31,976 bases of DNA, taken from IMG/VR virus record IMGVR_UViG_3300049737_000151, positions 1 to 31,976 of that record; one strand, given 5' to 3'. Each line of letters starts with the position of its first letter. Within the stretch, counting starts at the first letter, position 1. The notes below the pieces were generated by a model, which was not told where the DNA came from, did no database searches, and was given only the letters and a program-made list of their open reading frames with translations. Of this stretch, positions 14,894-30,623 are shown one piece after another. Source of the stretch: a virus. Both the position numbers and the translations under genes were made by a program.

Positions 14894-16191
14894 TGGATGG
14901 TCTTTTTGATGTAGTAAAATCCAAGAACGATTCTAAAGGTTCTGGGTTTTGTATTTTGAAATGGTGGCATGCTGAGATGCATCTAGCAGAGGGCATCAAC
15001 ATGTCTTGTTACCACTGCCCGCCACACAATCTAAATTTAGATCAAGACCTACATAATACGGATTTCAAGAAACAGCAACGAAAAACAATGTTGGAAGGCG
15101 GTAAACCATCAGAGTGTTCTCGTTGCTGGGATCTTGAGGATACTGGTGATATTGCATCTCCACGGCAAGTTCTAACTACAATGTTTTTGAAAAAGAAAAT
15201 GTCGTTAGACATCATAGATGATACTGCAAAAATCCCTTGGAATGAAAATGTTTATCCAAAATACCTTGAGTTGAGTTTCAGCAATCGCTGTCAATTGAAG
15301 TGTAGTTATTGCGCACCGCAAAAAAGCTCAGCGTGGTTTAACGAAATGAAAGAGCATGGTGATTATGACCTTTCTGAAGATAATAAAAAGCAGTATAGTT
15401 TAGACGCAGGGTGGACTTTATATGAGGAAGAAACTAATCCTTACATAAAAAAGTTTTGGGATTGGTTCCCTGAAGCATATGAACACTTAGATACTTTGCG
15501 TGTCACAGGTGGCGAACCATTCTTATCCGACCACGTCTATCGTCTAATAGACTACATACGCTGTAATCCAAAACCAATTGAATTTCACGTCAATAGTAAT
15601 CTCTGTGTCTCAGAACGCAGGATTAACAAATACATCGAGGCGAGCGAGGGTCTGGATTCCAAGGTTTATGTGAGCATAGATTCTTGGGGTAAGCAGGCTG
15701 AGTGGATACGTCACGGATTGAATCTAGAACTATTTGAAAGTAATTTGTATAAGTTACTAGATGCAGGCGAAAAGATAGGGTTTATGGTTACGTTTTGTTT
15801 GCTCTCAATCCCCAATTTCAACGAACTCTTAGAGAAAATACGAGAGTTACAACTAAAGTATCCTGACCAAGTTATAATTGACACACCTCATATGACGAGT
15901 CCTGTGCACCTATCGGCTGCAATTGCTGACGACGAACTGAAATATATGGCTCAAGATTCCTTGCTGTATATGAAAGAACTAGGATTTAGCGATTATGAAT
16001 TCTCTAAATTTAAGTCTTGCGTAGACTGGGTAAAAAATAGCAGTTGTGACGACATCGACAAACATCGTAAAGATTTTGCTGATTTTGTTGACCAACACGA
16101 TTCTAGAAGGGGAACTGATTGGCACGAAACCTTCCCTGAACTAAAAAACTTTTACAACCTATGTAAAAAAGATGTTGACTTTTGTGAATAA
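14893..16191 (+). CDS. Radical SAM protein with extra Cys pairs (twitch-type)
   Basis: A 432-residue radical SAM enzyme. The [4Fe-4S] motif CxxxCxxC is at C133, C137 and C140 (NRCQLKCSYC) and the SAM-binding GGEPF follows near residue 177. Additional cysteine pairs occur before the core (C39-x2-C42 and C75-x2-C78), and further Cys lie near the C-terminus, suggesting an auxiliary cluster or zinc site. Related proteins are frequent in marine phages with no assigned substrate. It is not QueE-like: it is far longer and its CxxxCxxC is internal. Modification of a peptide, a nucleic acid base or a sugar is possible. It is translationally coupled to the upstream membrane protein. Confidence 0.75.
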   Translation: MDGLFDVVKSKNDSKGSGFCILKWWHAEMHLAEGINMSCYHCPPHNLNLDQDLHNTDFKKQQRKTMLEGGKPSECSRCWDLEDTGDIASPRQVLTTMFLKKKMSLDIIDDTAKIPWNENVYPKYLELSFSNRCQLKCSYCAPQKSSAWFNEMKEHGDYDLSEDNKKQYSLDAGWTLYEEETNPYIKKFWDWFPEAYEHLDTLRVTGGEPFLSDHVYRLIDYIRCNPKPIEFHVNSNLCVSERRINKYIEASEGLDSKVYVSIDSWGKQAEWIRHGLNLELFESNLYKLLDAGEKIGFMVTFCLLSIPNFNELLEKIRELQLKYPDQVIIDTPHMTSPVHLSAAIADDELKYMAQDSLLYMKELGFSDYEFSKFKSCVDWVKNSSCDDIDKHRKDFADFVDQHDSRRGTDWHETFPELKNFYNLCKKDVDFCE

Positions 16192-18663: not shown

Positions 18664-19369
18664 TTACCACCACGAAGTTAGGGGAAAGACCCTAAAGTGG
18701 TTTTCAGTTGATAATCCTAAACGTGCTCAATACGAAGCACCAATAGAATATCGTTTCAATTCTCATGGATTTCGGATGGACATCGAAATGTGGGAGATTG
18801 AAGAAGGGTGTGACATTTACATTGGAGACAGCACGACTCTTGCATTTGGTCTTAATCCTGAAGAAGGTTGGGCATATAAGCACAACACTAAAGAGCAGTT
18901 TGTGAATTTATCCCAAGCAGGTTCTGGGTTAGATACTGTTACAAGACTTCTTGGGTACTGGGTTCCGATACTCAAACCAGAAAATGTTTACATTCAAGAG
19001 ACAGCACCAAACCGACAAGAGTTTTTGAATGCTGATGGAGTAGGGTGGTCTTCCGCTTACTGGGATCAAATAAGTATTCAAAAGTTTGGTGACCGAGAGA
19101 TTACTGACGAAAGTCACTTCAGAGAAAAATTGTTTATTGATCTGGTATCGCAAGAACCACAGGTAACTGTCCAAAGACAAAAGAACTTAGACGCAATTCA
19201 ATGGATTTGTAGAGACACTAAACTACACTTCGCTGATCTGTTTCCAACCAATAGTGAATTTATTGGAGCATCTAGAGATGGTTTTCACCCTGGAGCAGAA
19301 CAACAAGACAAAATACTAGACAGGTTTATAAGGGTCAAAAAATCTTCCCCATTGCCATCCTTCTGGTAA
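18647..19369 (+). CDS. SGNH/GDSL-like hydrolase (first paralogue)
   Basis: A 240-residue protein with block I GDST (nucleophile S62), preceded by YRFNSHGFRMD, and a late catalytic pair in SRDGFHPG (D211, H214). This is consistent with an SGNH esterase or lipase fold. The substrate could be an acyl or acetyl group on host glycan, lipid or protein. A diverged paralogue lies at 21162-21944. It starts 17 nt inside the upstream gene. Its last 54 nt overlap, on the other strand, the end of the minus-strand NUMOD3 gene, so the final residues (about KKSSPLPSFW) may have been reshaped by that insertion. Confidence 0.7.
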   Translation: MQKAIDYHHEVRGKTLKWFSVDNPKRAQYEAPIEYRFNSHGFRMDIEMWEIEEGCDIYIGDSTTLAFGLNPEEGWAYKHNTKEQFVNLSQAGSGLDTVTRLLGYWVPILKPENVYIQETAPNRQEFLNADGVGWSSAYWDQISIQKFGDREITDESHFREKLFIDLVSQEPQVTVQRQKNLDAIQWICRDTKLHFADLFPTNSEFIGASRDGFHPGAEQQDKILDRFIRVKKSSPLPSFW

Positions 19370-19834
19370 TTGTGCTGTTGCTTCTATTAGATGCATATTT
19401 CCGTTTGGTTCAACGCACCATTTTCGCTTCGGTCTCTCATATGCTTTTTGACGGATCTTTGCGATTGTTTCGGGAGAATGTTTTCTTCCGTACATTGGAT
19501 TAAATTCACCAACACGAGTTCCTGACATAGTGTTACTGATCCTTTCTCGATGCGTATCCGACAAACCATTTTTATGGGGGTGCTTATTCCCCAGTTTGGC
19601 TTGGCGTATCCTCTCTCGACCTTCTGGTGTATGCCATTCGGTTCTGTCGCGACATCTATCAACGATTGGTAAATCTGTTTTATTTTGGGTGAGAACATAC
19701 TCGCGAATAGATTCTATATTCGCTTTTTTGATTAGCATTTCTCTTGGTTTTGGAACGTCTTGGAGGGTCTTTTCGTCTACAATCCAGAACTCATCCCTTG
19801 TACGAAACGCAAAAAATCGGGATGCTCTTTCCAT
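19316..19834 (-). CDS. NUMOD3-type homing-endonuclease-associated protein, the only confident minus-strand gene
   Basis: A 172-residue protein read against all neighbours. It has NUMOD3-like DNA-binding repeats: one around GNKHPHKNGLSDTHRERISN, then FNPMYGRKHSPETIAKIRQK. A C-terminal motif (WCVEPNG...LPEGWQWGR) recurs in such proteins. No GIY-YIG or HNH catalytic core is visible. It may be a reduced or nuclease-less relative, or the N-terminal 60 residues may hold an unrecognised domain. A GAGG ribosome binding site precedes the ATG, and an exact TATAAATA octamer lies on the same strand about 30 nt further upstream. Its 3' end overlaps the end of the plus-strand SGNH gene by 54 nt. It is most simply a recent mobile insertion. 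Confidence 0.7.
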   Translation of the reverse strand: MERASRFFAFRTRDEFWIVDEKTLQDVPKPREMLIKKANIESIREYVLTQNKTDLPIVDRCRDRTEWHTPEGRERIRQAKLGNKHPHKNGLSDTHRERISNTMSGTRVGEFNPMYGRKHSPETIAKIRQKAYERPKRKWCVEPNGNMHLIEATAQLPEGWQWGRFFDPYKPV

Positions 19835-19948: not shown

Positions 19949-20146
19949 ATGAGTAAGATGAGTCAGTTTGTTTTTGAGTGTCAAGAGTTGGCTGCAAATA
20001 ACTGGAATGAGCCGTCTGATATTTTGGCTTATCAGGTTTATGAGCAGTTCGCTGATAGACCTGAACTTCGAGACTATGCTCTCGAAACAACAATGGCTGA
20101 GTGGGATGTTATCCAACAAGATCTCTCCAGTGTGTGGGAGGTATGA
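19949..20146 (+). CDS. Small acidic phage protein, unknown function
   Basis: A 65-residue acidic, helical protein (MSKMSQFVFECQELAANNW at the start, TMAEWDVIQQDLSSVWEV at the end). It has a strong promoter and GGAG ribosome binding site and is followed immediately by the HAD gene with a stop/start overlap. Aromatic and acidic composition suggests a small protein-binding early product, but nothing specific can be assigned. Confidence 0.65.
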   Translation: MSKMSQFVFECQELAANNWNEPSDILAYQVYEQFADRPELRDYALETTMAEWDVIQQDLSSVWEV

Positions 20147-20736
20147 TGAAAGATAAGTATATCCTCACAGATTGTGATGGAGTTTGCCTCGACTGGGAAG
20201 AGGCGTTCATGGTTTGGATGGAAAACAGAGGACAATCTCCTATTGAAGATTACAAAAAGGTTTATAGTGTAAACCAAAGATTCGATATGAAGAGATCCGA
20301 AGCCAGAAAAATCGTCAGTGTGTTTAATGAATCTGCTGCGATTGGTTTTCTACCGCCACTCAGAGATGCTCAATACTACATCAAGAAGCTACACGAAAAG
20401 CATAAATATAAATTTATTGCTGTCACTAGTCTGTCACTAGATCCTTATGCCCAAAAACTTCGAGAAAGAAACCTGAATAAATTATTCGGTGAGAACACTT
20501 TTGAGAAAGTTATTTGTCTTGATACTGGTGCCGATAAAGACGAGATTCTTGCTGAATTGAGTAAAAAATATCGTGGTTGTTATTGGATTGAAGATAAACC
20601 TGAAAATGCAAATGTCGGTGCCGATGTTGGTTTTGAAAGTCTTTTAATTGAGCATGGTCATAATATGCATTCCAAAGGTGATTTCAAGACAATGAAGAAT
20701 TGGGAGGATGTTTATAATGAAGTTACAAGATCGTAA
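20146..20736 (+). CDS. HAD-family phosphatase (possible deoxyribonucleotidase)
   Basis: A 196-residue HAD-superfamily hydrolase with motif I DCDGV (D9, D11), a downstream VTSLS segment as motif II and YWIEDKPENANVG as the motif IV acidic region. This arrangement fits small 5'-nucleotidase-type or polynucleotide-phosphatase-type HAD enzymes. A nucleotide substrate is inferred from the dCMP deaminase nearby. ATG 20146 is chosen (20143 is possible), with GGAGG just upstream. It overlaps the preceding stop by 1 nt, and its end overlaps the next gene by 20 nt. Confidence 0.7.
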   Translation: MKDKYILTDCDGVCLDWEEAFMVWMENRGQSPIEDYKKVYSVNQRFDMKRSEARKIVSVFNESAAIGFLPPLRDAQYYIKKLHEKHKYKFIAVTSLSLDPYAQKLRERNLNKLFGENTFEKVICLDTGADKDEILAELSKKYRGCYWIEDKPENANVGADVGFESLLIEHGHNMHSKGDFKTMKNWEDVYNEVTRS

Positions 20737-20929
20737 ATTTTATGAATGGGCGAAACGTATGTGGCACAAAAATTGTACCGAACGTGATATGTTCGGAGAG
20801 TGCATCTATACCTTTAATGATTATGTCCAGAATAATGAGACTTTCTTGTTAGAAAAATATCGCGAAAAATTAGCCAAAGAAAGCTCAGCTAATTGGGTCG
20901 AAACTATTAGGGTAGGGAGTAAACCTTAA
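20717..20929 (+). CDS. Small conserved phage protein, unknown function
   Basis: A 70-residue protein with a helical, aromatic-rich N-terminus (KFYEWAKRMWHKNCTERDMF) and a charged helix (LEKYREKLAKESSANW). ATG 20717 has GGAGG 9 nt upstream; an earlier ATG at 20708 directly abuts that site and is less likely. It overlaps the HAD gene by 20 nt. No domain is recognised. Confidence 0.6.
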   Translation: MKLQDRKFYEWAKRMWHKNCTERDMFGECIYTFNDYVQNNETFLLEKYREKLAKESSANWVETIRVGSKP

Positions 20930-20969
20930 TTTTTGTTATAGATATGTAACATTAATTGGAGAGAAGTAT

Positions 20970-21158
20970 ATGGATTCATTAACACATACGTTTATAGCAT
21001 GGACTTGCATTGGTGTTGCATATGTTATCGGTCATTATTATGGTGAGAGAAAGGGTTCTCAAATAGGTGCCCAAGTTGTTTTAGAATGGGTTGAGGATAA
21101 AGTAGGTACAACCCAATTTAATGAGTGGGTTCAACAAGACCGAGAAGAGAAAGAGTAG
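20970..21158 (+). CDS. Small single-pass membrane protein
   Basis: A 62-residue protein with one hydrophobic segment at about residues 6-24 (HTFIAWTCIGVAYVIGHYY), followed by a charged helical tail ending in DREEKE. GGAGAG precedes the ATG. It lies directly before the second SGNH hydrolase. Function unknown. Confidence 0.6.
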   Translation: MDSLTHTFIAWTCIGVAYVIGHYYGERKGSQIGAQVVLEWVEDKVGTTQFNEWVQQDREEKE

Positions 21159-21161
21159 TCG

Positions 21162-21944
21162 ATGAAAGAAAGTTGGGGAAAAGCAAACGGAAAAGACCAT
21201 ACTCCAGAAGAACTGCCTTTTTATATGGACGACAGCGAAGAACAGTATGCGCTGAATTGGTCACATAACTACGACGAGTTACTCAGAAATGGATGGATTT
21301 TTCAAGAACCTGAGGGAGCAGAAGATGTAGTCGGTTACAAATATGACTACAATACCATGGATCCTAAGCAGGGCGATTGGGTCAACCTTTCTTATAGAAT
21401 TAATTCTCATGGGTTCAGGGGTGAAGAAATGCCCACAGAACCAAAGAAACGTAGTATTATCTGTCTCGGTGATTCAAATACATTTGGGATTGGCATGCCA
21501 GAGGGCAAACTTTGGTCTACTCGTATCGGGCATACTTTAAAGGTGAGATCATATAATCTAGGCATACCAAATGGTTCTCTAGACTCTGCATTTAGAGTTT
21601 TAATGTACTGGTTGCCCAAGATAAAACCATCTCATGTGTTTATGTGCACTCCATTCGAGGGTTATGAACACCACATACATTCTGGTATCCTCAATGCAGG
21701 GTATCCATTAGCAACAACAGAAGATGAGTGGATACTACACAAAGAAAAGGTTTTGCGAGCCATGCAACATTTATGTGATCAATTTGATACTCCTTTAATC
21801 CAAGATGATTGCTGTGGCGACGACTATTTTTCTATATTTCAAGAACACGATCTCTCTAGAGATTTAAAATATTATGGTTCAAACAGGCACATATACATTG
21901 CGATGAACCTATTGAGGAAAGCTGGATATGAGTGGGATGTCTAA
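21162..21944 (+). CDS. SGNH/GDSL-like hydrolase (second paralogue)
   Basis: A 260-residue protein sharing the RINSHGFRG lead-in and block I LGDSN-F-G-G (S105) with the 18647 gene, but with an extra N-terminal region of about 75 residues. The C-terminal catalytic pair is less canonical: SRDLKYYGSNRH places D234 and H243 further apart than the usual D-x-x-H. It probably still has the SGNH fold, with esterase activity uncertain. The two copies in one window suggest different substrates or divergence after duplication. Its ATG follows the membrane-protein stop by 3 nt. Confidence 0.65.
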   Translation: MKESWGKANGKDHTPEELPFYMDDSEEQYALNWSHNYDELLRNGWIFQEPEGAEDVVGYKYDYNTMDPKQGDWVNLSYRINSHGFRGEEMPTEPKKRSIICLGDSNTFGIGMPEGKLWSTRIGHTLKVRSYNLGIPNGSLDSAFRVLMYWLPKIKPSHVFMCTPFEGYEHHIHSGILNAGYPLATTEDEWILHKEKVLRAMQHLCDQFDTPLIQDDCCGDDYFSIFQEHDLSRDLKYYGSNRHIYIAMNLLRKAGYEWDV

Positions 21945-21946
21945 GA

Positions 21947-22420
21947 ATGACTGATACATACACAAGAACTTGGGGTATTCTACCCAATAAATGGGACAGG
22001 GCGCATATGAAAGTTGCCCGAGTTTACTCTAAACTTTCTACCGCAAAAAGATTACAGGTTGGTGCCGTTATCGTAAAAGATAACCGCATTATCTCCATTG
22101 GTTATAATGGTATGCCCTCTGGTTGGGACAATGTGTGTGAAAATGAAATCAAATGGCCAAATGGCGACGTTCAATTCCTAGAGACAAAACCAGAAGTGCT
22201 TCACGCTGAATCAAATGCAATTGCTAAAGTTGCTAAATCTTCTGATAATTGCGAGGGTGCTACGATTTATACAACAACAGCACCTTGTATTGAATGTGCT
22301 AAATTGATATATCAATCTGGGATAAAACGTGTTGTTTGGGAGAAACCTCATCTAAGAAATGATGATGGTGTCAAGTTTCTTGATAAATGTGATGGGATAG
22401 TTGTGGAGAAATACGAATGA
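21947..22420 (+). CDS. dCMP deaminase
   Basis: A 157-residue zinc-dependent deaminase converting dCMP to dUMP, the substrate of the ThyX encoded at 7929. The zinc and catalytic residues are in HAESNAIAK (H86, E88) and TAPCIECAKLI (C114, C117). GYNGMPSGWDN is the typical substrate-loop motif. ATG 21947, 2 nt after the previous stop, is chosen over an overlapping GTG at 21932. It ends in an ATGA overlap with the next gene. Together with ThyX and the reductase it would enlarge the dTTP pool. Confidence 0.92.
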   Translation: MTDTYTRTWGILPNKWDRAHMKVARVYSKLSTAKRLQVGAVIVKDNRIISIGYNGMPSGWDNVCENEIKWPNGDVQFLETKPEVLHAESNAIAKVAKSSDNCEGATIYTTTAPCIECAKLIYQSGIKRVVWEKPHLRNDDGVKFLDKCDGIVVEKYE

Positions 22421-23178
22421 AGATAACAGTTTTCGGGTATGGGTTTGTCGGGAGAGCGCACGAAATGGCTCTTTCAGTCAATAAGGGCAACGAAATAACA
22501 GTCGTAGACCCAGCGTTCAACGACAATACTATTGGAGATCCAGAAGCGGTTATCATTGCAGTAGCCACTCCAATGTCTGATGTTGATGTTGGTATTTGTG
22601 ATATGACAAATGTCTTTGATGTCCTTGATGAATGCCCCACTGATATCCCAGTTCTCATCAAAAGTACAATATCTTTGGAAGGCTGGAGATATATCAAAGA
22701 AGTTTACCCAGACCACAACATCACATTTAGTCCAGAGTTCCTTCGAGCTGAACACGCACTCGAAGATTTCAACAATAGAACTTCAATGTACTTTGGTGGG
22801 GGTGACGACCTTTTTTGGGCGACATTGTTTTGGAAGCAGGGTTGTGAAATGATAATTAGAGACCCTGAAGAACTCATAATTATGAAATACACTGTAAACT
22901 CATTCCTTGCAGCAAAGGTTGCCTTCTTCAATCAGATCTACGATGTGTGTAAATCTGCAGGTATAAATTATGATACAGTGAAAGATTTAGTAAGCCGAGA
23001 CGAAAGAATAGGCACTAGTCATATGGAAATAACAGAAGAAAGAGGTTATGGTGGTCACTGTTTTCCAAAAGACACCAATGCCTTGATATATTCTGCAGGT
23101 CAACTTGGCGTTGATATGTCGATTTTAAGAATAGCTTCGAACTACAATAATGTTATACGTTTGAGCAAAGAAATTTAA
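22417..23178 (+). CDS. UDP-glucose/GDP-mannose 6-dehydrogenase-like enzyme
   Basis: A 253-residue nucleotide-sugar dehydrogenase. It has an N-terminal NAD-binding Rossmann motif (VFGYGFVG), FSPEFLRAEHA near 104-114, KYTVNSFLAAKVAFFNQ with K157, and the catalytic cysteine in GYGGHCFPKD (C215). It would oxidise a UDP- or GDP-sugar to the uronic acid. Bacterial enzymes are usually 400 or more residues. This copy ends soon after the catalytic Cys and lacks the C-terminal NDP-binding domain, a short form I recall from marine phages, so the true substrate is uncertain. It is translationally coupled to the dCMP deaminase. Confidence 0.8.
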   Translation: MKITVFGYGFVGRAHEMALSVNKGNEITVVDPAFNDNTIGDPEAVIIAVATPMSDVDVGICDMTNVFDVLDECPTDIPVLIKSTISLEGWRYIKEVYPDHNITFSPEFLRAEHALEDFNNRTSMYFGGGDDLFWATLFWKQGCEMIIRDPEELIIMKYTVNSFLAAKVAFFNQIYDVCKSAGINYDTVKDLVSRDERIGTSHMEITEERGYGGHCFPKDTNALIYSAGQLGVDMSILRIASNYNNVIRLSKEI

Positions 23179-23193
23179 TTAAGGGTTTAATTT

Positions 23194-23463
23194 ATGAGAA
23201 TGTTAAGAGATAATGTGTTAGTGCAGGAAATGAGTTCTAAGGAAACAGAAACAGCAGGTGGTATCATCCTTACTGCTCCATTAGATAATAAAGGTGCGAT
23301 TCCTGCATTTGTGGTCGCAGTTGGACCAGAAGTTACTTTGGTGAAACCAAAAGATAAAGTATTCCTTGATTGGAGTAAGGGGACTGCAGTTGAAGTTGCG
23401 GATAATGTGCAAGGTGTTTCTATCCAAGAGAAATACATCAAAGCAGTTGTTGAAGAAGAATAA
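23194..23463 (+). CDS. GroES-like co-chaperonin (Cpn10; gp31 analogue)
   Basis: An 89-residue Cpn10-fold protein: LRDNVLVQEMSSKETETAGG with the mobile-loop region GGIILTAP, then VVAVGPEVTLVKPKDKVFLD and EKYIKAVVEE at the end. It should cap host GroEL, as T4 gp31 does for folding the major capsid protein. The sequence is clearly GroES-like rather than a diverged gp31. It lies 15 nt after the dehydrogenase gene and just before the promoter of the modification cluster. Confidence 0.85.
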   Translation: MRMLRDNVLVQEMSSKETETAGGIILTAPLDNKGAIPAFVVAVGPEVTLVKPKDKVFLDWSKGTAVEVADNVQGVSIQEKYIKAVVEEE

Positions 23464-23477
23464 TTTAGAAATAATGC

Positions 23478-23506
23478 TTGACTTCTTAAAAGGGAGAGAG
23501 TATAAT
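23478..23506 (+). promoter_or_regulatory. Sigma70-type promoter overlapping a start codon
   Basis: TTGACT (23478-23483), 17-bp spacer, TATAAT (23501-23506). The -10 box overlaps the ATG at 23505, so transcripts from here (start near 23513) would lack that start codon and mainly serve the dioxygenase gene at 23703. The spacer also contains GGGAGAGAG, the ribosome binding site for the 23505 ATG when read from upstream. Confidence 0.75.
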
Positions 23507-23687
23507 GTATAAATGGTGGAGAATATGGGCGAAAAGTCTTGGTGAGAAAGTTGGAGAGACTGACAAACAAGCCAATACTGTTGCTGGTATTCGCACTATT
23601 TGGTGGATTACTCATATGGCGACTTGTTGGTTTATTATACTCAACGCGATCGCCACACATGGGTGGGGACTAATCGGTCTAAATTGA
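23505..23687 (+). CDS. Small membrane protein
   Basis: A 60-residue Trp-rich protein with one hydrophobic segment at about residues 33-57 (IWWITHMATCWFIILNAIAT). The ribosome binding site GGGAGAG is well spaced from the ATG. The ATG is embedded in the -10 box of a near-consensus promoter, so the protein can only be made from transcripts starting further upstream. Function unknown. It could also be a chance reading frame in a promoter and leader region. Confidence 0.5.
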   Translation: MYKWWRIWAKSLGEKVGETDKQANTVAGIRTIWWITHMATCWFIILNAIATHGWGLIGLN

Positions 23688-23702
23688 TTGGGATGATATA
23701 TT

Positions 23703-25007
23703 ATGATAAAAGAACTAACGATTGAAAAGATAAACTGTGATGATAAACTAGGTGGCTGGCTTGATGACTCCACATACGATCAAATCATTACTGAAGACAC
23801 TGACTTGTATGCCCTCGATAAATTTGAGGAAAACAGTGAACATAACGTAATCTTCAAGTTCCGTAAGGGAGTTTTCTCCAAAGAAGAACAAGAGGGTGCA
23901 ATGGAAGGGTTGGCTCCTGCCGCAGTAGAAACACAGAATCGTGGTATGGCTGCAGGTCCAAGGCAAGAGCAGTTAGGTAATAGAGACTGGGTTACGCCAT
24001 TACAAACTGAGATCCTTGACGCAATCTTCTCTGCCCCTGATTCTTCCCTTGATGGTGACTTTGATGCAATTGAAGATGCTATTGCTCGCCACAAACCATC
24101 TGGGGGTGGTCGTGGTAGTGTTTGGCTGAGAGAAAAAATTAAAAAGGCTGGTGTTGAATACACTGGGTTTTTTGACCATTGGCTCGAAAGTGTTCGCCCG
24201 ATGTCTCCTGCTGAACGAAAAGTTGCAGCAAAAGATATGGTTGATACTTATATCTCTGATACCTCGTATGCAAATACAGTTAATTCTGGTATTTGCGGTT
24301 GGTTTGATCGGTATCCTCGCATACCATATGGTCGTGCTACAGCATACACTGAAAAGAATCCTGAGTTATTTTCAAAGTCGTACCCATATTTGCAGACTTT
24401 GTCTCGTAAGTTTGAAGAGTTGCTCCCTGTAAGGTATGGAAAGCAAAAGGCATTCACTGATAAAATTGATCCAGCTTTTGTTGTTCCTGGAACACCATAC
24501 ACAACTCTTACAGTAAACCGAACATTCCGTACTGCTGCACACAGAGATGCTGGTGACTTCTCAGATGGCTTCTCTAATATCAGCTGTATCTCTCCTGATG
24601 GCAAAAAGAGTTGGGAAGGGTGTTTGTTTGTACTTCCCGAGTATCGCATTGCTGTTGAACTTCATCCAGGAGATCTTCTTCTTGTGAATAACCACGATGG
24701 TATTCACGGCAATACTGAAATCATTGGCGATAATTCTGATCGTATCTCGATTGTTGCCTATGCTCGTGAGAAAATGGCTCTACTTGGGTCGTTTGAATAC
24801 GAGAACTTGCGTCGTCAGTTCGTTGACTACAGACGACTCAATCAGGAACATCCCGAGTGGCGTCCTCTCTGGAATGGTGTATCTTCTAAGATGTGGGAAT
24901 CCACTGAATGGTATGATTACCTAAAAGAGCAGGGCGGTCAAGAGATGCTTGATACATATCATCCCACAGCATCTGTTGAATCCGCATCACTCGAGGATTT
25001 GTTCTGA
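23703..25007 (+). CDS. TET/JBP-like 2-oxoglutarate/Fe(II) dioxygenase (DNA base oxygenase)
   Basis: A 434-residue protein whose C-terminal half matches the TET/JBP double-stranded beta-helix family that hydroxylates 5-methylcytosine or thymine in DNA. Visible: NTVNSGICGWFDR near 191-203, VPGTPYTTLTVNR (261-273), the iron-binding HRD (H280, D282), EGCLFVLPEYRIAVELHPGD (305-324), the third ligand in HDGIHGN (H335), and the 2-oxoglutarate-binding Arg in DRISIVAYARE (R347). About 180 N-terminal residues resemble no domain I recognise and include a helical, acidic segment. It heads a colinear set of modification-type genes: class II amidotransferase, amidoligase, GNAT and aGPT-Pplase-like. No DNA methyltransferase is nearby, so thymine oxidation to 5-hydroxymethyluracil is an open alternative to 5-methylcytosine. 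Confidence 0.82.
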   Translation: MIKELTIEKINCDDKLGGWLDDSTYDQIITEDTDLYALDKFEENSEHNVIFKFRKGVFSKEEQEGAMEGLAPAAVETQNRGMAAGPRQEQLGNRDWVTPLQTEILDAIFSAPDSSLDGDFDAIEDAIARHKPSGGGRGSVWLREKIKKAGVEYTGFFDHWLESVRPMSPAERKVAAKDMVDTYISDTSYANTVNSGICGWFDRYPRIPYGRATAYTEKNPELFSKSYPYLQTLSRKFEELLPVRYGKQKAFTDKIDPAFVVPGTPYTTLTVNRTFRTAAHRDAGDFSDGFSNISCISPDGKKSWEGCLFVLPEYRIAVELHPGDLLLVNNHDGIHGNTEIIGDNSDRISIVAYAREKMALLGSFEYENLRRQFVDYRRLNQEHPEWRPLWNGVSSKMWESTEWYDYLKEQGGQEMLDTYHPTASVESASLEDLF

Positions 25008-25008
25008 T

Positions 25009-25656
25009 ATGTGCGCAGTGATTGGCGCACAATTAAATTCCCCCACGTCTGAAGATTTAGATTTGGTGCGGAATGTTTTCCTTGAATCTCGTATTCGGGG
25101 ATTACACGCGACTGGATTGTCGTATGTAAAGAATGGTAAGGTTGTCACCCTCATTGAAGCAGTCCCTGCTCCTGACTTCTCTCCTCTCTCAAATATGGAG
25201 CATTTGTTAAATGAGGATGGCAACCTCTACCTTATCGGTCACTGTCGTTATTCAACCAGTGACCTCAGATTCAATCAACCCATACAAACTAGCCCTGATT
25301 TATCAATCGTGCATAACGGAGTTGTCTCGCAAGAGTTACCTGAGAACTGGGAAAGGATGTATGGGTTCACAACTGAAACTCAGAACGACACTGAACTTCT
25401 CAATAAAACGATTGAGGCTCGCCTTGACCCATTGGATATCTGGGAAAATTCTTCTTTGGCGGTCATCGAGTTGCGTTCTGATAAAAGTCTAAATGTTTAT
25501 CGAAATGGAAAACGTCCTCTATACAAAACAACTATGGAGAACGGATACATTGTCACATCTACTGAAGATATAGCAAATCGTGCTGGTCTTCCACATAATT
25601 GTGCCATGTTAGATAATGCTGGTACAACTGCTGAATTACAACCATGTTACTACTGA
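25009..25656 (+). CDS. Class II (Ntn-type) glutamine amidotransferase domain protein
   Basis: A 215-residue stand-alone glutaminase domain. After Met removal the N-terminal Cys (MCAVIGA, C2) would be the nucleophile. RGLHATG near 30-36, GHCRYST (77-83, with R80) and VHNG (101-104) match the glutamine-binding and oxyanion residues of the GlmS/PurF/AsnB amidotransferase domain. It has no synthetase partner domain, so it should supply ammonia to a separate enzyme; the adjacent amidoligase is the obvious candidate. The start at 25009 is fixed by the N-terminal Cys requirement and lies 1 nt after the dioxygenase stop. Alternative in-frame upstream starts would mask the Cys and are rejected. Confidence 0.85.
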   Translation: MCAVIGAQLNSPTSEDLDLVRNVFLESRIRGLHATGLSYVKNGKVVTLIEAVPAPDFSPLSNMEHLLNEDGNLYLIGHCRYSTSDLRFNQPIQTSPDLSIVHNGVVSQELPENWERMYGFTTETQNDTELLNKTIEARLDPLDIWENSSLAVIELRSDKSLNVYRNGKRPLYKTTMENGYIVTSTEDIANRAGLPHNCAMLDNAGTTAELQPCYY

Positions 25657-25666
25657 GGAAAAAAGT

Positions 25667-26617
25667 ATGACCAAACATTATGATCCTTCTACATTCACCT
25701 ATGGGTTCGAGATTGAATGGGGTGATATCGATAGAAACGTACCAATCCCTGCACATCTTGGTGCTTGGGAGTATTGTGAAACTGATATTGTGAATCTCAG
25801 AGAACCATATCGTGGTCTTGGTTCTGATCCCGCAGGTGTTAATCCTCCTGTTGGCGGTGAAATCAATACGATGCCGACTGATACTTGGGAAAAACAAGTC
25901 GATCGTATTATGGAAATCAAAGATATTTTTGACAAACATGGGACAGAACCGACTGCTAGTTGCGTGAATCATGGTCACCTGCATGTCCATGTTCCAGGAT
26001 TGACGGATGACGTTGACGCATTGAAACGTATTATGCTCTATATCGGTAGAAATCAGCACCTTGTTATGCGCAGAGTATATCAATTCGCTCAAGATAGTCG
26101 TATGAAGGGTACTAAAAAAGCCAAAGCATATCTTGCTTATGATGGTGGTCGTATTATTCCAGACTGGCTGATTCGCAATCTGTCAACAGTTCCTACTGAC
26201 TTTGAAGATTGGTTGCGTGTTCACTGTTGCGGTAAAGATGCTGTAGTTCGTTCTAGACCTTTCCGATATGGAATCCATACTTATGCTCTGAAGAATTCAA
26301 ATACGATTGAGTTCCGTTGTTTCCGTAGTTCTACAAAACGTGAAGAACTTGAATCGTCATTCAGATTTGCTAAGAAGTTTATTGAATGTGCACTGAACGA
26401 TGGTCCAGATGTTGACGAGTGGATTGACGAAGATAACTACCAGTTCCCTCCGTTTGACTACGACCACGAAATGTATGTTTCTTGGGAAAAGACAAAATAC
26501 GATCAAGTAGATAATAATCTTGATAAAGAAACTGCAGAGAAACTTGGTTTGTCACGTCTTGGTAAATCTCGAAAGTTCTTAGAAGTCACTGAAAATGTTG
26601 TACAAGAAAGTAAATAA
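25667..26617 (+). CDS. COOH-NH2 amidoligase-like protein (glutamine synthetase-like fold)
   Basis: A 316-residue protein with FTYGFEIEWGD near the N-terminus, GGEINTMPTDTWEKQ near 62-76, HGHLHVHVPGLTDD near 101-114, and NTIEFRCFRSS in the C-terminal half. These acidic, His and Arg motifs (E-x-E, GGE, H-x-H-V, E-F-R) match the phage and bacterial amidoligase family with a glutamine synthetase-like metal-binding core, which forms amide bonds from a carboxylate, an amine and ATP. ATG 25667 has GAGGA upstream. It follows the amidotransferase by 10 nt and overlaps the GNAT gene by 23 nt. The substrate is unknown; here it may act on the modified base or on its precursor. Confidence 0.75.
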   Translation: MTKHYDPSTFTYGFEIEWGDIDRNVPIPAHLGAWEYCETDIVNLREPYRGLGSDPAGVNPPVGGEINTMPTDTWEKQVDRIMEIKDIFDKHGTEPTASCVNHGHLHVHVPGLTDDVDALKRIMLYIGRNQHLVMRRVYQFAQDSRMKGTKKAKAYLAYDGGRIIPDWLIRNLSTVPTDFEDWLRVHCCGKDAVVRSRPFRYGIHTYALKNSNTIEFRCFRSSTKREELESSFRFAKKFIECALNDGPDVDEWIDEDNYQFPPFDYDHEMYVSWEKTKYDQVDNNLDKETAEKLGLSRLGKSRKFLEVTENVVQESK

Positions 26618-27230
26618 AACTGATTATCTGAAGATCCATGCCTCTCTAACGGATCCTGCTGATATAAAATTCTCTAAAACCGCTATTGGTATGTGGGATT
26701 TTATGAAAGCATGGGATGCGTGGGGGGTGAGGATTCTTGAGGATGAAGAAGGAATTTGCTGTATCTGCTTCATGAAAGTATCTGGTCAAGCAGGCACAAA
26801 GGTTTTATTTCTTTCTAATATCTTCACTCCTGCTTCTGGAAGGGGTAAGGGTTCTGCTAGGACTATGATTGATTTCAATATCAAAGAAGCTGTCAATCTA
26901 GGTGCAGAGACAATTCGTTTAGATTGTAATAAATCTGCTCTTGGGTTTTATGATAAGATTGGTTTGTCTTATTGGGGTACAACAAGAGATAAGTCAATGT
27001 TTTGTGACCTGCCAATAGACTCTACTGGTGTTTCTTGTTTTCAGCAAACAAAAAACAAAACTGCAGCAGAGATTTTAGACTCTTATTCTGAAAGAGTTCG
27101 TACAGCAAAGATTAAATGGATTTACAAAAAGGTAAAGATGCACGAAGAAACCGACCATGGTCATCCCTGTCGTTATGATGATTTTATGGATATTTACAAT
27201 AACAAAGCCACACTGGAATTACTTTTATAA
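26595..27230 (+). CDS. GNAT-family N-acetyltransferase
   Basis: A 211-residue protein with a GNAT core: FLSNIFTPASGRGKGSARTM, which contains the R-G-x-G-S/A acetyl-CoA loop after beta4, then GAETIRLDCNKSALGFYDKI and GLSYWG, the beta5-alpha4 and beta6 signature. The C-terminal 70 residues go beyond a typical GNAT domain. It overlaps the amidoligase gene by 23 nt and the aGPT-Pplase-like gene by 1 nt, so all three are probably translationally coupled. In a DNA-modification context it could acylate an amino group attached to the base. An unrelated small-molecule or protein substrate cannot be excluded. Confidence 0.75.
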   Translation: MLYKKVNKTDYLKIHASLTDPADIKFSKTAIGMWDFMKAWDAWGVRILEDEEGICCICFMKVSGQAGTKVLFLSNIFTPASGRGKGSARTMIDFNIKEAVNLGAETIRLDCNKSALGFYDKIGLSYWGTTRDKSMFCDLPIDSTGVSCFQQTKNKTAAEILDSYSERVRTAKIKWIYKKVKMHEETDHGHPCRYDDFMDIYNNKATLELLL

Positions 27231-28246
27231 TGGATTACAGAGAACCCAATAATCGTCTCGAGGCTTTCAAGCGATGGTATGCTTGGTCACTTAAATATAA
27301 TGACTGTGACCCAGCGATCTGGCTTGCGAATTATCTCAATAAAAGATATGAGCACAATGACGAGCAAAGACTTTGGTTTGCTTGGTTGTATGGCAACACA
27401 TATTACCTGCCGACGTCTTGGGTTCTTATGAACGAGTTCCCTGACTTTGAGTTGGCTACGTTTGATCGTATGGATGCTTGGAACACCGAGAACTATAAAA
27501 GACTCCGCTATCAGACTGACACCAAATGGAGTAAAGGTCATCTGGCTGATATGTTTCACTCATACGAACGATTTATTGGGTCAGAAAGAACGCAACGTCA
27601 AGCACTTGAATCATATTATGGTGCTAACGAGGAACAAAACTTTGACAATCTTTGGCGAGTAATCAAGGATGGGTTGTACAAGTTCGGTAGATACTCAACG
27701 TGGTTCTATATGCAACAACTGAAGCATACTGCCGAGGTTCCGATGGAACCCACTAGTTTGATGTTCAATGATTACTCTGGTTCTAAGTCTCATAGAAATG
27801 GTTGGTTATATGCTCTTGGTCAAGAAGACAAGCTAAATACTAAACTAACTGCAGGGGAATATGCAGATTTAGAAGCAAAGGGTCGGGATCTTATAATTGA
27901 AATGCGATCAGAGTATCCTGAGTTGGCTAAAGATATAAACTATTTCTCAATGGAGACATGCCTCTGTTCGTTCAAGAAATTATTCCGAAAACATCATGGT
28001 CGGTATCTTGGATATTATCTAGATAGACAGGCTGAAGAGATACTGAAAGTTGAGCAAGATGGATGGCATGGTATAGAATGGGAAGTATTGTGGCAAGCGA
28101 GGAACGAAACTCTTGACTTGACTTTATCAAATAAAACAGGTATAATTAAAGAAAAATATTCCTCATTTCTAAATACAGGTAAGTTAGATCGCTTAGAGAT
28201 GATGTATGATGATGAAACTAATGTTGAAGGAGTACTACAATTTTGA
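27230..28246 (+). CDS. aGPT-Pplase-family protein (putative amino acid:DNA transferase of thymine hypermodification)
   Basis: A 338-residue largely helical protein. The conserved blocks RLWFAWLYGNTYYLPTSWVL (47-66), KFGRYSTWFYMQQL (151-164), DYSGSKSHRNGW (181-192), GRYLGYYLDRQAEEI (257-271) and GWHGIEWEVLWQAR (278-291) match my memory of the alpha-glutamyl/putrescinyl thymine pyrophosphorylase group. Characterised relatives replace the pyrophosphate of an activated 5-hydroxymethyl-deoxyuridine in DNA with an amino acid or amine. The clade is uncertain and no database check was possible. The position between a GNAT and a P-loop kinase, downstream of a base dioxygenase, strongly supports the call. 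Its 3' end contains a near-consensus promoter. Confidence 0.62.
   Translation: MDYREPNNRLEAFKRWYAWSLKYNDCDPAIWLANYLNKRYEHNDEQRLWFAWLYGNTYYLPTSWVLMNEFPDFELATFDRMDAWNTENYKRLRYQTDTKWSKGHLADMFHSYERFIGSERTQRQALESYYGANEEQNFDNLWRVIKDGLYKFGRYSTWFYMQQLKHTAEVPMEPTSLMFNDYSGSKSHRNGWLYALGQEDKLNTKLTAGEYADLEAKGRDLIIEMRSEYPELAKDINYFSMETCLCSFKKLFRKHHGRYLGYYLDRQAEEILKVEQDGWHGIEWEVLWQARNETLDLTLSNKTGIIKEKYSSFLNTGKLDRLEMMYDDETNVEGVLQF
28118..28146 (+). promoter_or_regulatory. Sigma70-type promoter inside the aGPT-Pplase-like gene
   Basis: TTGACT (28118-28123), 17-bp spacer, TATAAT (28141-28146), about 97 nt upstream of the TTG start at 28243. It would give independent expression of the gp4-like nuclease, the 79-aa protein and the P-loop kinase. 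Confidence 0.65.
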
Positions 28247-28623
28247 AAACAAATAATTTTAAGGGTAGGTTCTGGCCAAGAAACCCAGAAAAGTACGAGG
28301 GAAACTCGAAGCAAATTATCTTCAGAAGTAGTTGGGAAAGACTTCTCATGGTATATTGCGATAAGAAAGATGAGATCCTTCGTTGGTCTAGTGAAGAAAT
28401 CAGGATACCATATGTGTTCGAAGGTAAAAATCGTTCATACTATCCCGACTTCTGGATAGAGTTCGTCAATAAAGATTGCAATGTCGAAAGACGAATCATT
28501 GAAATCAAACCACATTATCAACGCAATTGGGATGTGAATAAGGCGAAGTGGAGTGCTGCGACAAAATATGCGCAGGACAATGAAATGTCGTTTCAAGTTA
28601 TGACTGAGAAGGAGTTATTCTAA
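28243..28623 (+). CDS. Head-completion nuclease-like protein (T4 gp4 type)
   Basis: A 126-residue protein beginning KTNNFKGRFWPRNPEKYEGN, with IIFRSSWERLL (E32), LRWSSEEIRIPY, YYPDFWIEF (D69) and RRIIEIKPH (E87, K89). This is the PD-(D/E)xK nuclease-like arrangement of T4 gp4 (gp50), a head-completion protein, and of TnsA-type folds. T4 gp4 is about 150 residues. The start is a TTG whose last bases form the previous stop (TTGA). AAGGAG (28227-28232) lies 10 nt upstream and no ATG occurs before residue 36, so the TTG start is accepted. Its place inside the modification cluster is notable. Confidence 0.72.
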   Translation: MKTNNFKGRFWPRNPEKYEGNSKQIIFRSSWERLLMVYCDKKDEILRWSSEEIRIPYVFEGKNRSYYPDFWIEFVNKDCNVERRIIEIKPHYQRNWDVNKAKWSAATKYAQDNEMSFQVMTEKELF

Positions 28624-28862
28624 TGGGTCCATATGGTATATTCCGATTTACTGGTGTAAAGGCAAAGATGTTTCGTAAACTGGTAAACTTCTGTGATCTA
28701 GCTGAGTGCTGGCTCAAAGAAACATTTAACGTCAATATGCAAAACCACAGACAAAGGGTTCTTGAGTTCTCTCAAGACAATGTTCCCCTGAGTATGTTGG
28801 ATAAAACTATTGGTGTGAATTTAGATATTGTTGAGAAGAAGAAAAAGAGAAAGAAAAAATGA
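28623..28862 (+). CDS. Small basic-tailed phage protein, unknown function
   Basis: A 79-residue protein with a helical core (VKAKMFRKLVNFCDLAECWL) and a C-terminal Lys-rich tail (EKKKKRKKK) that suggests nucleic-acid contact. It overlaps both neighbours, the gp4-like gene by 1 nt (TAATG) and the kinase by 4 nt (ATGA), so it lies in the same coupled unit. No family recognised. Confidence 0.65.
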   Translation: MGPYGIFRFTGVKAKMFRKLVNFCDLAECWLKETFNVNMQNHRQRVLEFSQDNVPLSMLDKTIGVNLDIVEKKKKRKKK

Positions 28863-29407
28863 GCACAGTCATAGCAGTTGTGGGTGTTCCTGGATCAGGG
28901 AAGACAACTCTAATCAAAGAGTTTATGAAGAGCGATGAATGGTTCTCTTGTAAGCCAGTTGATTTGGTCGAGGGTTACATCTCGCTCAAGAAAAATATAT
29001 TCCTCATGGGTAAATACGAGGAAGGCGAGGTGTTCTCTGGAACTGATCGTCTTTCGATGGCGGTTCAACCCAAAGCCATTGAATATCTCGAAGGTGAGCC
29101 AGCAGATGTGGTTCTTTTTGAGGGCGATCGCCTCACAACTACCTCATTCTTTGACGCAGTGAAAAAGGCAGGTCACGAACTAGTCATTGTAGAGTTAACA
29201 GTCTCTGACGATATTAGAGAACAACGATACAAAGAACGTGGAAGTGATCAGAGCGAGCAATTCATTCAGTCTCGATTCACCAAACTCAAGAACATCAAGA
29301 ATGGGTTTGGAGCAAACTTGTTTGACGATGGTCATATTCGTTCATTTGAGCACACAAATGAGCAAGACACTTTGGATGTAATCAATTTCATTAATGGGTA
29401 TATGTAA
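28859..29407 (+). CDS. P-loop kinase (candidate modified-base kinase)
   Basis: A 182-residue P-loop NTPase with Walker A GVPGSGKTT (9-17), a probable Walker B acidic segment in VVLFEGDRL, and a lid-like Arg cluster (IREQRYKERGS). The size and layout fit small kinases of the adenylate/uridine-kinase group. P-loop kinases accompany aGPT-Pplase genes in phages that hypermodify thymine, where a kinase activates hydroxymethyluracil in DNA. That association, not a specific motif, is the basis for the suggested role. A nucleotide or polynucleotide kinase is the alternative. It is translationally coupled on both sides (ATGA, TAATG). Confidence 0.65.
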   Translation: MSTVIAVVGVPGSGKTTLIKEFMKSDEWFSCKPVDLVEGYISLKKNIFLMGKYEEGEVFSGTDRLSMAVQPKAIEYLEGEPADVVLFEGDRLTTTSFFDAVKKAGHELVIVELTVSDDIREQRYKERGSDQSEQFIQSRFTKLKNIKNGFGANLFDDGHIRSFEHTNEQDTLDVINFINGYM

Positions 29408-29613
29408 TGTCTAAATGGCATGGCGGTAAAGGCGACAAGCCACGCAAAACAACTGTGTCGCAAGAGAAAATAGATTCTAACTGGGATGCTATCTTCGGTG
29501 GTAAAGAAAAGAAAAACATTGAAGAAACTTGGGAACATTGGTGTACAGTAAAAGCAAGAAAACTCCTTGTGACCAAAGAAAAGGAATGCCCATTCTGCGG
29601 CATATCAGAGTAA
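29407..29613 (+). CDS. Small conserved phage protein with HGGKGD motif
   Basis: A 68-residue protein starting MSKWHGGKGDKPRKT, with SNWDAIFGGKE near residues 24-34 and a Cys pair, CPFC (61-64), at the end. The HGGKGDKPR...F-x-x-NWDxIF pattern is widespread in small phage proteins of unknown function. It is the last gene of the modification-type series, coupled to the kinase by TAATG. Confidence 0.72.
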   Translation: MSKWHGGKGDKPRKTTVSQEKIDSNWDAIFGGKEKKNIEETWEHWCTVKARKLLVTKEKECPFCGISE

Positions 29614-29667
29614 CGCTACATATACTCAAAAGTTCTAAAAAAATCTTTTCTTATAACAAAATAGTTG

Positions 29668-29695
29668 TTGCTTTTTATCTCTATTGTAGTATAAT
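29668..29695 (+). promoter_or_regulatory. Early-type promoter, member of a repeated module
   Basis: TTGCTT (29668-29673), 16-bp spacer, TATAAT (29690-29695) within CTATTGTAGTATAATA, a block repeated almost exactly at 30839-30853. A GA-rich leader with ribosome binding site leads to the ATG at 29730. Confidence 0.7.
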
Positions 29696-29729
29696 AACTG
29701 TATAAATTGAGATGAAGAGAGAGATTATT

Positions 29730-30095
29730 ATGGCTTATATATCGCAAGAAAAGAAAAAGGCACTCGCCCCTGCTATCAAAGCAGTCCTAAAGAAGTATAA
29801 AGTAAAAGCATCAATCGCTGTTCGCAATCATTCTACTTTGGTTGTTAACGTGAAAGAAGGTGCTGTTCCGTTTGATCCATCTAGTCACTATCAAATAAAT
29901 CAGTACTGGTTTAGAGAGCATTTCTTAGGTAACAACACTCTTGTTTCGTTTATCGATGAGTTGCTTTCAGCGATGAAAGGTCCAGATTACTACAACAATG
30001 ATAATGCGATGGTTGATTATTATGATCGTAGTCATTATACTGATATCAATATGGGTCAGTGGGATAAACCTTATAAATTCGTTCCTGCTAAATAA
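29730..30095 (+). CDS. Conserved phage protein (MAYISQE... family), unknown function
   Basis: A 121-residue protein. The ATG at 29730 after a GAGAG ribosome binding site is preferred over 29712, which lies in the leader. Segments such as APAIKAVLKKYKVKASIAVR, HSTLVVNVKEG and YTDINMGQWDKPYKF match a small conserved phage and bacterial family I recall without a known role. It has its own promoter and is followed by a closely spaced second gene. Confidence 0.7.
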   Translation: MAYISQEKKKALAPAIKAVLKKYKVKASIAVRNHSTLVVNVKEGAVPFDPSSHYQINQYWFREHFLGNNTLVSFIDELLSAMKGPDYYNNDNAMVDYYDRSHYTDINMGQWDKPYKFVPAK

Positions 30096-30105
30096 GGAGA
30101 TTGTG

Positions 30106-30441
30106 ATGATTAAAGAAATTGAAACTCTAATTGAAGACATCAAAGATGATTATGCCAAATTCATGGCTCCTGTCGATGATGTGTCAAAACAAATGAACGA
30201 AAGATTTCGTTCGGGTGTCTCTGTTAAAGAAGGTCGAAAGTACATCAAGATTCTCACTGATCGCTCGGTGTGGGGTTTTGTTGTGAATACCGACAATGAT
30301 AATAAGTTTAAGAGGGGTGATATTCTGATGGCTGCAGGTTATAATGCTCCCGCTAGAAACCATCCTCGTGGTAATATTTTTGGTAAATACTCAGTCTCTT
30401 GGACTGGTCCGCATTATATTGGTGATGGGAGGTTATTGTAA
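30106..30441 (+). CDS. Conserved phage protein, unknown function
   Basis: A 111-residue protein from ATG 30106 (AAGGAGA upstream). The conserved middle and end are NERFRSGVSVKEGRKYIKIL, RSVWGFVV, FKRGDILMAAGYNAPARNHP and a Trp-Thr-Gly-Pro end, predicted as beta-rich. I recall this as an uncharacterised small family in phage early regions. It ends at the start of the next gene (TAATG). Confidence 0.7.
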   Translation: MIKEIETLIEDIKDDYAKFMAPVDDVSKQMNERFRSGVSVKEGRKYIKILTDRSVWGFVVNTDNDNKFKRGDILMAAGYNAPARNHPRGNIFGKYSVSWTGPHYIGDGRLL

Positions 30442-30623
30442 TGCAATTTGATAGCAATCTTTTGGTTTCACACTTCGCGTCAATGACATTGGCATTTTTT
30501 GTCGGTGTCTTGATTGCTGCTTGTTCGGTTCAAAACAGCTGGAGGGTAGATGCTGCTGCGACTGAATGTGCTCAATTTAACCCACTAAATGGTCATTTCG
30601 AATGGCACGAGGAAAAGGAATAA
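30441..30623 (+). CDS. Small membrane-anchored protein
   Basis: A 60-residue protein with one hydrophobic segment at about residues 10-28 (HFASMTLAFFVGVLIAACS), then a short domain with CAQFNPLNGHFEWHE. The segment is signal-anchor-like, and the C-A-x-F/Y-N-P-x-x-G-x-F-x-W ending recurs in small phage membrane proteins. Function unknown. It overlaps the previous gene by 1 nt and abuts the next. Confidence 0.65.
   Translation: MQFDSNLLVSHFASMTLAFFVGVLIAACSVQNSWRVDAAATECAQFNPLNGHFEWHEEKE

Follow-up and report, generated by a model that had tools for sequence, protein, structure and literature searches.

A predicted thymine-hypermodification cassette with a glutaminase and exchangeable tailoring genes in marine-type T4-like viruses

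TET-dependent hypermodification is known chiefly from gene content, and the abstract of a 2013 paper by Iyer and colleagues reportedly proposed that hydroxymethylpyrimidines produced by TET are then modified further. The modified bases of phages M6, ViI and phiW-14 (5-NedU, 5-NeOmdU and putrescinylthymine) are made through hydroxymethyl-deoxyuridine (hydroxymethyl-dU), a DNA kinase, a nitrogen transferase and tailoring (PMC6449724). The thymidine hypermodification system published for Rhodococcus phage Tonitrus includes TET, aGPT-Pplase2 and kinase genes (PMC11955845). The 5-phosphomethyl-dU glycinyltransferase gp46/PUGT of Pseudomonas phage PaMx was crystallised (8z2m, 8z2n), and the title of the paper on this series of structures (Wen et al., 2024, cited in PMC11946847) names 5-NmdU. 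Cyanophage S-B43 has the CmoX/CmoY pathway to a 5-carboxymethylcytosine-glycine amide, in which an amide is ligated on the base and some ligases carry a glutaminase domain (PMC12783734). Here, the entire IMG/VR virus record IMGVR_UViG_3300049737_000151 (31,976 bases, referred to as the window), from a virus known from metagenomes alone, was analysed. A cassette at 23703-29407, judged by its sequence, very probably rebuilds thymine in phage DNA into a larger amine-derived base; it appears to be a variation on known thymidine hypermodification, with a glutaminase (GAT2), an amidoligase and a GNAT acyltransferase as additions.

The six cassette genes are intact open reading frames (ORFs) placed serially on the plus strand, in the order TET/JBP, GAT2, amidoligase-like, GNAT, ADDT (the Pfam name for aGPT-Pplase2/AADT, which expands to amino acid:DNA transferase), two small genes and P-loop kinase.

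23703..25007, plus strand: TET/JBP 2-oxoglutarate (2OG)/Fe(II) dioxygenase, 434 amino acids; PF12851 1e-19 (residues 215-356), phrog_24024 5e-150
25009..25656, plus strand: stand-alone class II (Ntn) glutaminase domain, GAT2; PF13522 4e-9
25667..26617, plus strand: amidoligase-like (COOH-NH2 ligase, like glutamine synthetase (GS) and glutamate-cysteine ligase (GCS)); PF12224 0.049; longest ORF from 25616
26595..27230, plus strand: GNAT acyltransferase of type A (GNAT-A), paired with the amidoligase; PF00583 5e-5, over cut-off
27230..28246, plus strand: ADDT of clade I (ADDT-I), aGPT-Pplase2-like; PF18724 2e-18; AlphaFold model like 8z2m/8z2n by Foldseek
28859..29407, plus strand: P-loop kinase (Ploopntkinase3); PF18751 9e-17

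The GAT2 start was best read at 25009 (MCAVIGA), 1 nt past the TET stop, and the amidoligase start, from comparison of homologues, is probably 25667, 10 nt after GAT2. A sequence-only reading of this DNA had listed the six families as one series, and the series proved real: the Pfam models Tet_JBP (70.8 bits vs a cut-off of 34.9), GATase_6 (37 vs 27), Acetyltransf_1 (23.9 vs 20.7), and ADDT (67.3 vs 26.2) were matched over cut-off, Ploopntkinase3 was matched at 9e-17, and the amidoligase alone was weak (E=0.049, 13.9 bits on Amidoligase_2, under the cut-off of 22). Neither 27230-28246 (aGPT-Pplase2/ADDT by Pfam) nor 28859-29407 (PF18751, a hypermodification-associated P-loop kinase family) was assigned to an unrelated family. 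The identity of the amidoligase is supported by a homologue (L192) that exceeds the Amidoligase_2 cut-off (26.1 bits), by residues E32/E34/E82/H121/R217/E232/R234, fully conserved in 116 members, and by the top Foldseek matches of its model (pLDDT 62), low in score, all of which were to GS, GCS, YbdK or PafA/Dop, every one with an E-value of at least 0.012. PDB sequence searches with the amidoligase, the kinase, the window ADDT, ADDT profile A7 and the clade-II ADDT of locus L414 gave no useful match. A predicted hydroxymethyl-generating enzyme (TET), a P-loop kinase and a nitrogen transferase (ADDT), the combination by which thymidine hypermodification is recognised, are found together in the window and its relatives.

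Scans with amidoligase, TET, ADDT and GAT2 alignments produced more than 300 loci, in 207 non-redundant groups. With the amidoligase as sole query, 27 viral contigs were obtained, and the order in nearly every one was TET-GAT2-amidoligase-GNAT-ADDT-kinase; the same order was kept in dozens of contigs whose amidoligases are 44-76% identical. Junctions were nearly fixed across relatives (TET/GAT2 -1 nt, GAT2/amidoligase -4, amidoligase/GNAT -4). The recurrence of order and spacing in such divergent contigs argues against a chance arrangement. Catalytic residues were essentially invariant: the HxD...H iron triad and 2OG-binding arginine of TET (H280, D282, H335, R347) in 100% of 218 homologues, the class II signature of GAT2 (N-terminal Cys, R80, N103-G104, D127) in 100% of 180, and the lysine of the kinase Walker A motif GVPGSGKT in 100% of 257. 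Together with the amidoligase residues, this points to functional genes under selection. The cassette is frequent in aquatic T4-like viruses, with at least hundreds of matches in IMG/VR; a scan of the genome collection with the amidoligase gave only two contigs of metagenome-assembled genomes, and megablast of window 20000-30500 against published phages gave no match. Phage relatives of the TET protein were found in DLP_6, C48C1 and Cr30 (52%, 46% and 42% identity).

The ADDT tree (FastTree) consists of two groups on either side of one branch with 98% local support, clade I being window-like and clade II containing Cr30, mycobacteriophage and Simon-like sequences. Loci were counted if non-redundant and flanked by at least 2.5 kb on each side (83 in clade I, 48 in clade II). 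GAT2 was present in 83/83 clade-I vs 0/48 clade-II loci; other, slightly different filters gave 81/81 vs 0/48, the subset fetched with ADDT queries alone gave 25/25 and 0/47, and a search of whole records, among them the full genomes of Cr30, Simon and Bane2, gave 8/8 vs 0/8. Three clade-I rows without GAT2 (L143, L176, L177) are contigs that end close upstream. When loci with flanks were seeded with GAT2, TET, ADDT-I and kinase were present in 67/67 and the amidoligase in 44/67. TET was present in 40 of the 48 clade-II loci. The cassette, by its gene content, is an invariant core (TET, GAT2, ADDT-I, kinase) with exchangeable end modules.

The amidoligase was distributed differently from GAT2, occurring in 55/83 clade-I and 2/48 clade-II loci, with GAT2 kept in the 28 clade-I cassettes (of 83) that have none. 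GAT2 changed state 3 times on the ADDT tree and the amidoligase 24 times, and GAT2 seldom differed between the members of about ten independent pairs that are unlike in amidoligase. GAT2 goes with the transferase, not with the amidoligase. An obligate glutaminase-amidoligase pair was considered and rejected on co-occurrence, since of the two genes these 28 cassettes have GAT2 alone, and L414 and phage Simon the amidoligase alone. The sequence-only reading had assigned both enzymes to one amidating step, which was not upheld, GAT2 following the ADDT clade and each gene being found without the other. The same counts, and the lack of GAT2 in any clade-II cassette with flanks, make a related route doubtful, in which ADDT-I would add an amino acid to 5-phosphomethyl-dU, the amidoligase would make a carboxamide with GAT2 ammonia, and GNAT would acylate the remaining amine. 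That route is favoured by the transfer of glycine by characterised ADDT relatives (8z2m), by the glutaminase and carboxylate ligase being a classic pair, by a DNA-acting ligase with a glutaminase domain proposed in the 5-carboxymethylcytosine pathway (PMC12783734), and by Vibrio phage 2.275.O (L036), whose 7-deazaguanine gene set includes both amidoligase and GATase_6.

The substrate of the transferase was approached through its fold. The AlphaFold model of the window ADDT (pLDDT 93.5, pTM 0.92) had 8z2m and 8z2n as its sole good Foldseek matches (probability 0.95-0.99, TM 0.48-0.59), a likeness that rests on probability and TM given E-values of 0.27-0.51. The match to a 5-phosphomethyl-dU glycinyltransferase supports a phosphomethyl-dU substrate made by the kinase, from which the window ADDT is predicted to displace the phosphate. 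The window kinase is likewise a predicted hydroxymethyl-base DNA kinase, and ADDT and kinase are fused in four clade-II ORFs (L373, L410, L412, L413); these fusions support the proposed order of the steps. At two alignment positions the clades differ, clade II having R98/R270 (72/76) and clade I T98/E270 (133/138 rows); an ERRH motif of PUGT and Simon appears equivalent to arginine 98. Loss of such arginines would be in keeping with a nucleophile that lacks a carboxylate, such as ammonia, and T98/E270 with the strict GAT2 pairing suggests ammonia rather than a free amino acid for ADDT-I. PALP-like pyridoxal phosphate (PLP) enzymes, with weak Pfam support, were found in 25/48 clade-II vs 0/83 clade-I loci. 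Seven ORFs (L422, L435, L436, L419, L420, L427, L354) are fusions of a clade-II ADDT to a PALP-like enzyme (fold-type II PLP). Beside or fused to clade-II ADDT, these enzymes would process the installed amino acid. Among NCBIfam models, GAT2 came nearest to purF (8e-8) and asparagine synthase, in both cases to their glutaminase domains and far under equivalog cut-offs. PurF displaces pyrophosphate with glutamine-derived ammonia, which is the logic proposed here for GAT2, the predicted ammonia source, and ADDT-I.

From gene content, conservation, co-occurrence and fold similarity, we infer the following reactions, substrates, products and protection. After replication, TET, predicted to hydroxylate the 5-methyl group of thymine in DNA, would form 5-hydroxymethyl-dU, replacing the dUMP hydroxymethylase of other such phages. 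The P-loop kinase would convert this to 5-phosphomethyl-dU. GAT2 would free ammonia from glutamine, and clade-I ADDT would swap the phosphate for it to form 5-aminomethyl-dU, by PurF-like logic on DNA. Finally, an exchangeable module would cap the amine: amidoligase and GNAT-A in the window, GNAT alone or amidoligase and small phosphatase elsewhere. The amidoligase would link the amine with a carboxylic acid, and GNAT would acylate the amine. By analogy with known systems, the bulky bases are assumed to shield the genome from host nucleases. This route to 5-aminomethyl-dU followed by exchangeable capping is given an even chance of being correct. The broader scheme of the sequence-only reading was supported: a pathway that hypermodifies a DNA base by oxidation, activation (here by a kinase) and conjugation, with amidation or acylation to follow.

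Several points weigh against this pathway. The link of GAT2 to ADDT-I amounts to one evolutionary transition, so that the counts show retention, not independent gains; a Fisher test on 83/83 vs 0/48 was given no weight, the loci being related by descent. Conservation of R270 is not evident in the crystallised glycinyltransferase. The gene pairing in Vibrio phage 2.275.O fits joint action of amidoligase and glutaminase. A flavin lyase was predicted in L414, which has an amidoligase, a clade-II ADDT and no GAT2; the prediction failed, and a PLP-like enzyme was found there. The window kinase matches PF18751 and not the HMUDK family (PF18748/PF18723), outside which it may still work like a 5-hydroxymethyl-dU DNA kinase. 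One clade-II record (G024) has a C5-cytosine methylase.

The last two points also favour a route in which TET oxidises 5-methylcytosine (5mC) and the later steps act on 5-hydroxymethylcytosine, and the phage TET enzymes studied biochemically by Burke and colleagues in 2021 are said to act on 5mC. The search for a methylase made that route unlikely. A 138,660-base record (G006) is the same virus (>99.9% identity to window 1-25421 in the two stretches compared), and the two records jointly span about 145 kb of it. Searches for a C5-cytosine methylase (PF00145) were negative over this span, in seven further clade-I records (126-173 kb), and in Cr30, DLP_6, C48C1 and shorter relatives, whereas 10 of 14 control genomes matched. 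Nonlabens phage P12024L was discarded as a positive control in favour of these control genomes, its annotated DNA methyltransferase giving no PF00145 match. A methyl mark may still be host-made or have gone unrecognised. The lack of C5-cytosine methylases points to thymine as the TET substrate; the sequence-only reading had left 5mC or thymine open, and the thymine part is what this result favours. In addition, the fold relative of ADDT works on phosphomethyl-dU, and the window encodes ThyX, which supplies thymidylate. Thymidylate-synthase-family genes were not found in nearly all TET records searched, which suggests that TET replaces the hydroxymethylase.

TET enzymes can also produce carboxyl bases. 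Oxidation of the methyl group to a 5-carboxyl, with a base carboxamide then made by the amidoligase and GAT2 ammonia, would suit a glutaminase and a ligase; it has the faintest chance of being correct, since it would leave no role for the kinase and ADDT that every complete cassette has, and the amidoligase is often absent. TET homologues without ADDT were also seen near a glycosyltransferase-like gene (L116, L123, L126, L128, L138 and others), and TAGT-like genes were seen in Cr30 and L135. By gene content, the loci with TET and a glycosyltransferase-like gene are a possible base-J-like branch in phages without a C5 methylase.

The slot between GAT2 and ADDT was the variable part of the cassette. 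It holds amidoligase and GNAT-A in the window and many other cassettes, a different GNAT alone (GNAT-B in the closest relatives of the window, L107, L108, L111 and L112; GNAT-C in about 45 groups), or an amidoligase and then, in place of GNAT, a low-molecular-weight phosphatase (PF01451) (L192 6594-7016, L135 5229-5645, L035 8860-9381 and others). The TET, GAT2 and ADDT of the window are nearest to L107 (82-91% identity), which has no amidoligase, and its amidoligase is nearest to L037 (76%) and the L006-like group; the amidoligase-GNAT pair therefore appears to have been exchanged as a module. From its distribution, the amidoligase is an optional tailoring enzyme of clade-I cassettes. By eye, a ParB-like ORF with no Pfam match was seen in about 40 groups. 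In L025 (11444-12739), as in about 40 further cassettes, the ORF lies between GNAT and ADDT and looks GIY-YIG-like as well as ParB-like.

Phage Simon encodes an enzyme closely related to the crystallised glycinyltransferase (9e-61), another closely related to the flavin-dependent lyase (7e-62), HMUDK domains (PF18748/PF18723), a thymidylate-synthase-family (dUMP hydroxymethylase-like) gene, and an amidoligase of the cassette family with a small phosphatase after it. Clade-I cassettes, L192 and L135 among them, have this amidoligase-phosphatase pair too. That a single downstream module follows two different upstream routes suggests that both pass through 5-aminomethyl-dU. The amidoligase of Simon also bears on a reading in which GAT2, amidoligase and GNAT make a small peptide or metabolite or modify a protein, as predicted for LUZ24-like amidoligase neighbourhoods, with TET, ADDT and kinase alone acting on DNA. 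LUZ24-like Pseudomonas phages do have a 28% identical GAT2. Such a separate role for the trio is very unlikely, because its genes lie among the DNA-modifying genes and are translationally coupled to them, GAT2 was never found without TET, ADDT-I and kinase in the 67 seeded loci, and the amidoligase recurs in the hydroxymethyl-dU cluster of Simon.

In its fullest form, the proposal is a third route of nitrogen to thymine: a two-subunit, PurF-like, glutamine-dependent DNA amidotransferase (GAT2 and ADDT-I) would make 5-aminomethyl-dU, and swappable amidoligase, GNAT and phosphatase caps would give a family of N-acyl-aminomethyl thymines. The chance of this is put slightly below even. If true, it would mean glutamine-dependent amination of DNA, a TET enzyme acting on thymine, and base diversity generated by swapping capping enzymes; it would provide enzymes to place amines and amides on DNA and would help to explain restriction evasion by abundant viruses.

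Two further ORFs lie between ADDT and kinase.

28243..28623, plus strand: T4 gp2-like head-closure / TnsA-fold nuclease; phrog_218 6e-38, PF08722 8e-19
28623..28862, plus strand: small ORF, 79 amino acids, no family match

The gp2-like gene was found at this place in the window and L107 only, and the 79-residue ORF is not between ADDT and kinase in most relatives. The kinase was rightly counted in the series by the sequence-only reading, but the two intervening genes are foreign to the cassette, as ADDT abuts the kinase in most relatives. The window is T4-like in its gene content, with ThyX, the two subunits of ribonucleotide reductase, T4 RNase H and a T4 gp2-like protein, and comes from a marine-type T4-like bacterial virus. 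A UDP-glucose dehydrogenase-like gene (22417-23178) and a GroES-like ORF (23194-23463, by eye) lie directly upstream of the cassette. Elsewhere in the window, a lone QueC-like preQ0 synthase gene (10382-10981, PF06508 3e-11) lies beside the ribonucleotide reductase genes, with no PTPS/QueD match found in G006; a Twitch-domain radical S-adenosylmethionine protein is encoded at 14893-16191 (NF033640, 1e-85), and a homing-endonuclease-like ORF with NUMOD3 at 19316-19834 (minus strand).

In the literature searched, no TET/ADDT cassette was found described with GAT2, an amidoligase or a GNAT, a neighbourhood that Iyer et al. (2013) may have drawn; the patterns among relatives suggest a route, direct amination of thymine in DNA fed by GAT2, that was likewise not found described there. 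The sequence-only reading expected a product unlike the known modified thymines and knew of no biochemical proof for the combination; the TET, aGPT-Pplase2 and kinase part of it is not new, having been published for Tonitrus (PMC11955845). Like the window, Tonitrus and mycobacteriophages such as Bane2 (ParB-like, TET-like, aGPT-Pplase2, kinase; Bane2 gp2-gp3 match Tet_JBP and ADDT) have TET, ADDT and kinase in one run. Unlike it, they have a clade-II ADDT, Bane2 is without GAT2, and amidoligase or GNAT is not reported in this type. Caulobacter phage Cr30, also T4-like, has TET, ADDT and kinase 42%, 27% and 37% identical to those of the window; it differs in its clade-II ADDT, in having its own thymidylate synthase family gene, and in that GAT2 was not found in its complete genome. 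S-B43 uses a carboxymethyl handle on cytosine and an AMP-forming ligase, and the window cassette a predicted hydroxymethyl handle and a GS/GCS-like amidoligase. M6, ViI and phiW-14 have the same order of steps as proposed for the window cassette, with no TET and with other tailoring enzymes; we know of no glutaminase in these systems. The hydroxymethyl group of PaMx is made at the nucleotide level. The 5-NmdU pathway of PaMx (gp46, 8z2m/8z2n; flavin-dependent lyase, 8z2o/8z79) shares with the window cassette the ADDT fold, the predicted phosphomethyl-dU substrate and the predicted aminomethyl product, but it uses glycine and a flavin lyase where the window cassette is predicted to use GAT2 ammonia, on a hydroxymethyl group made by TET.

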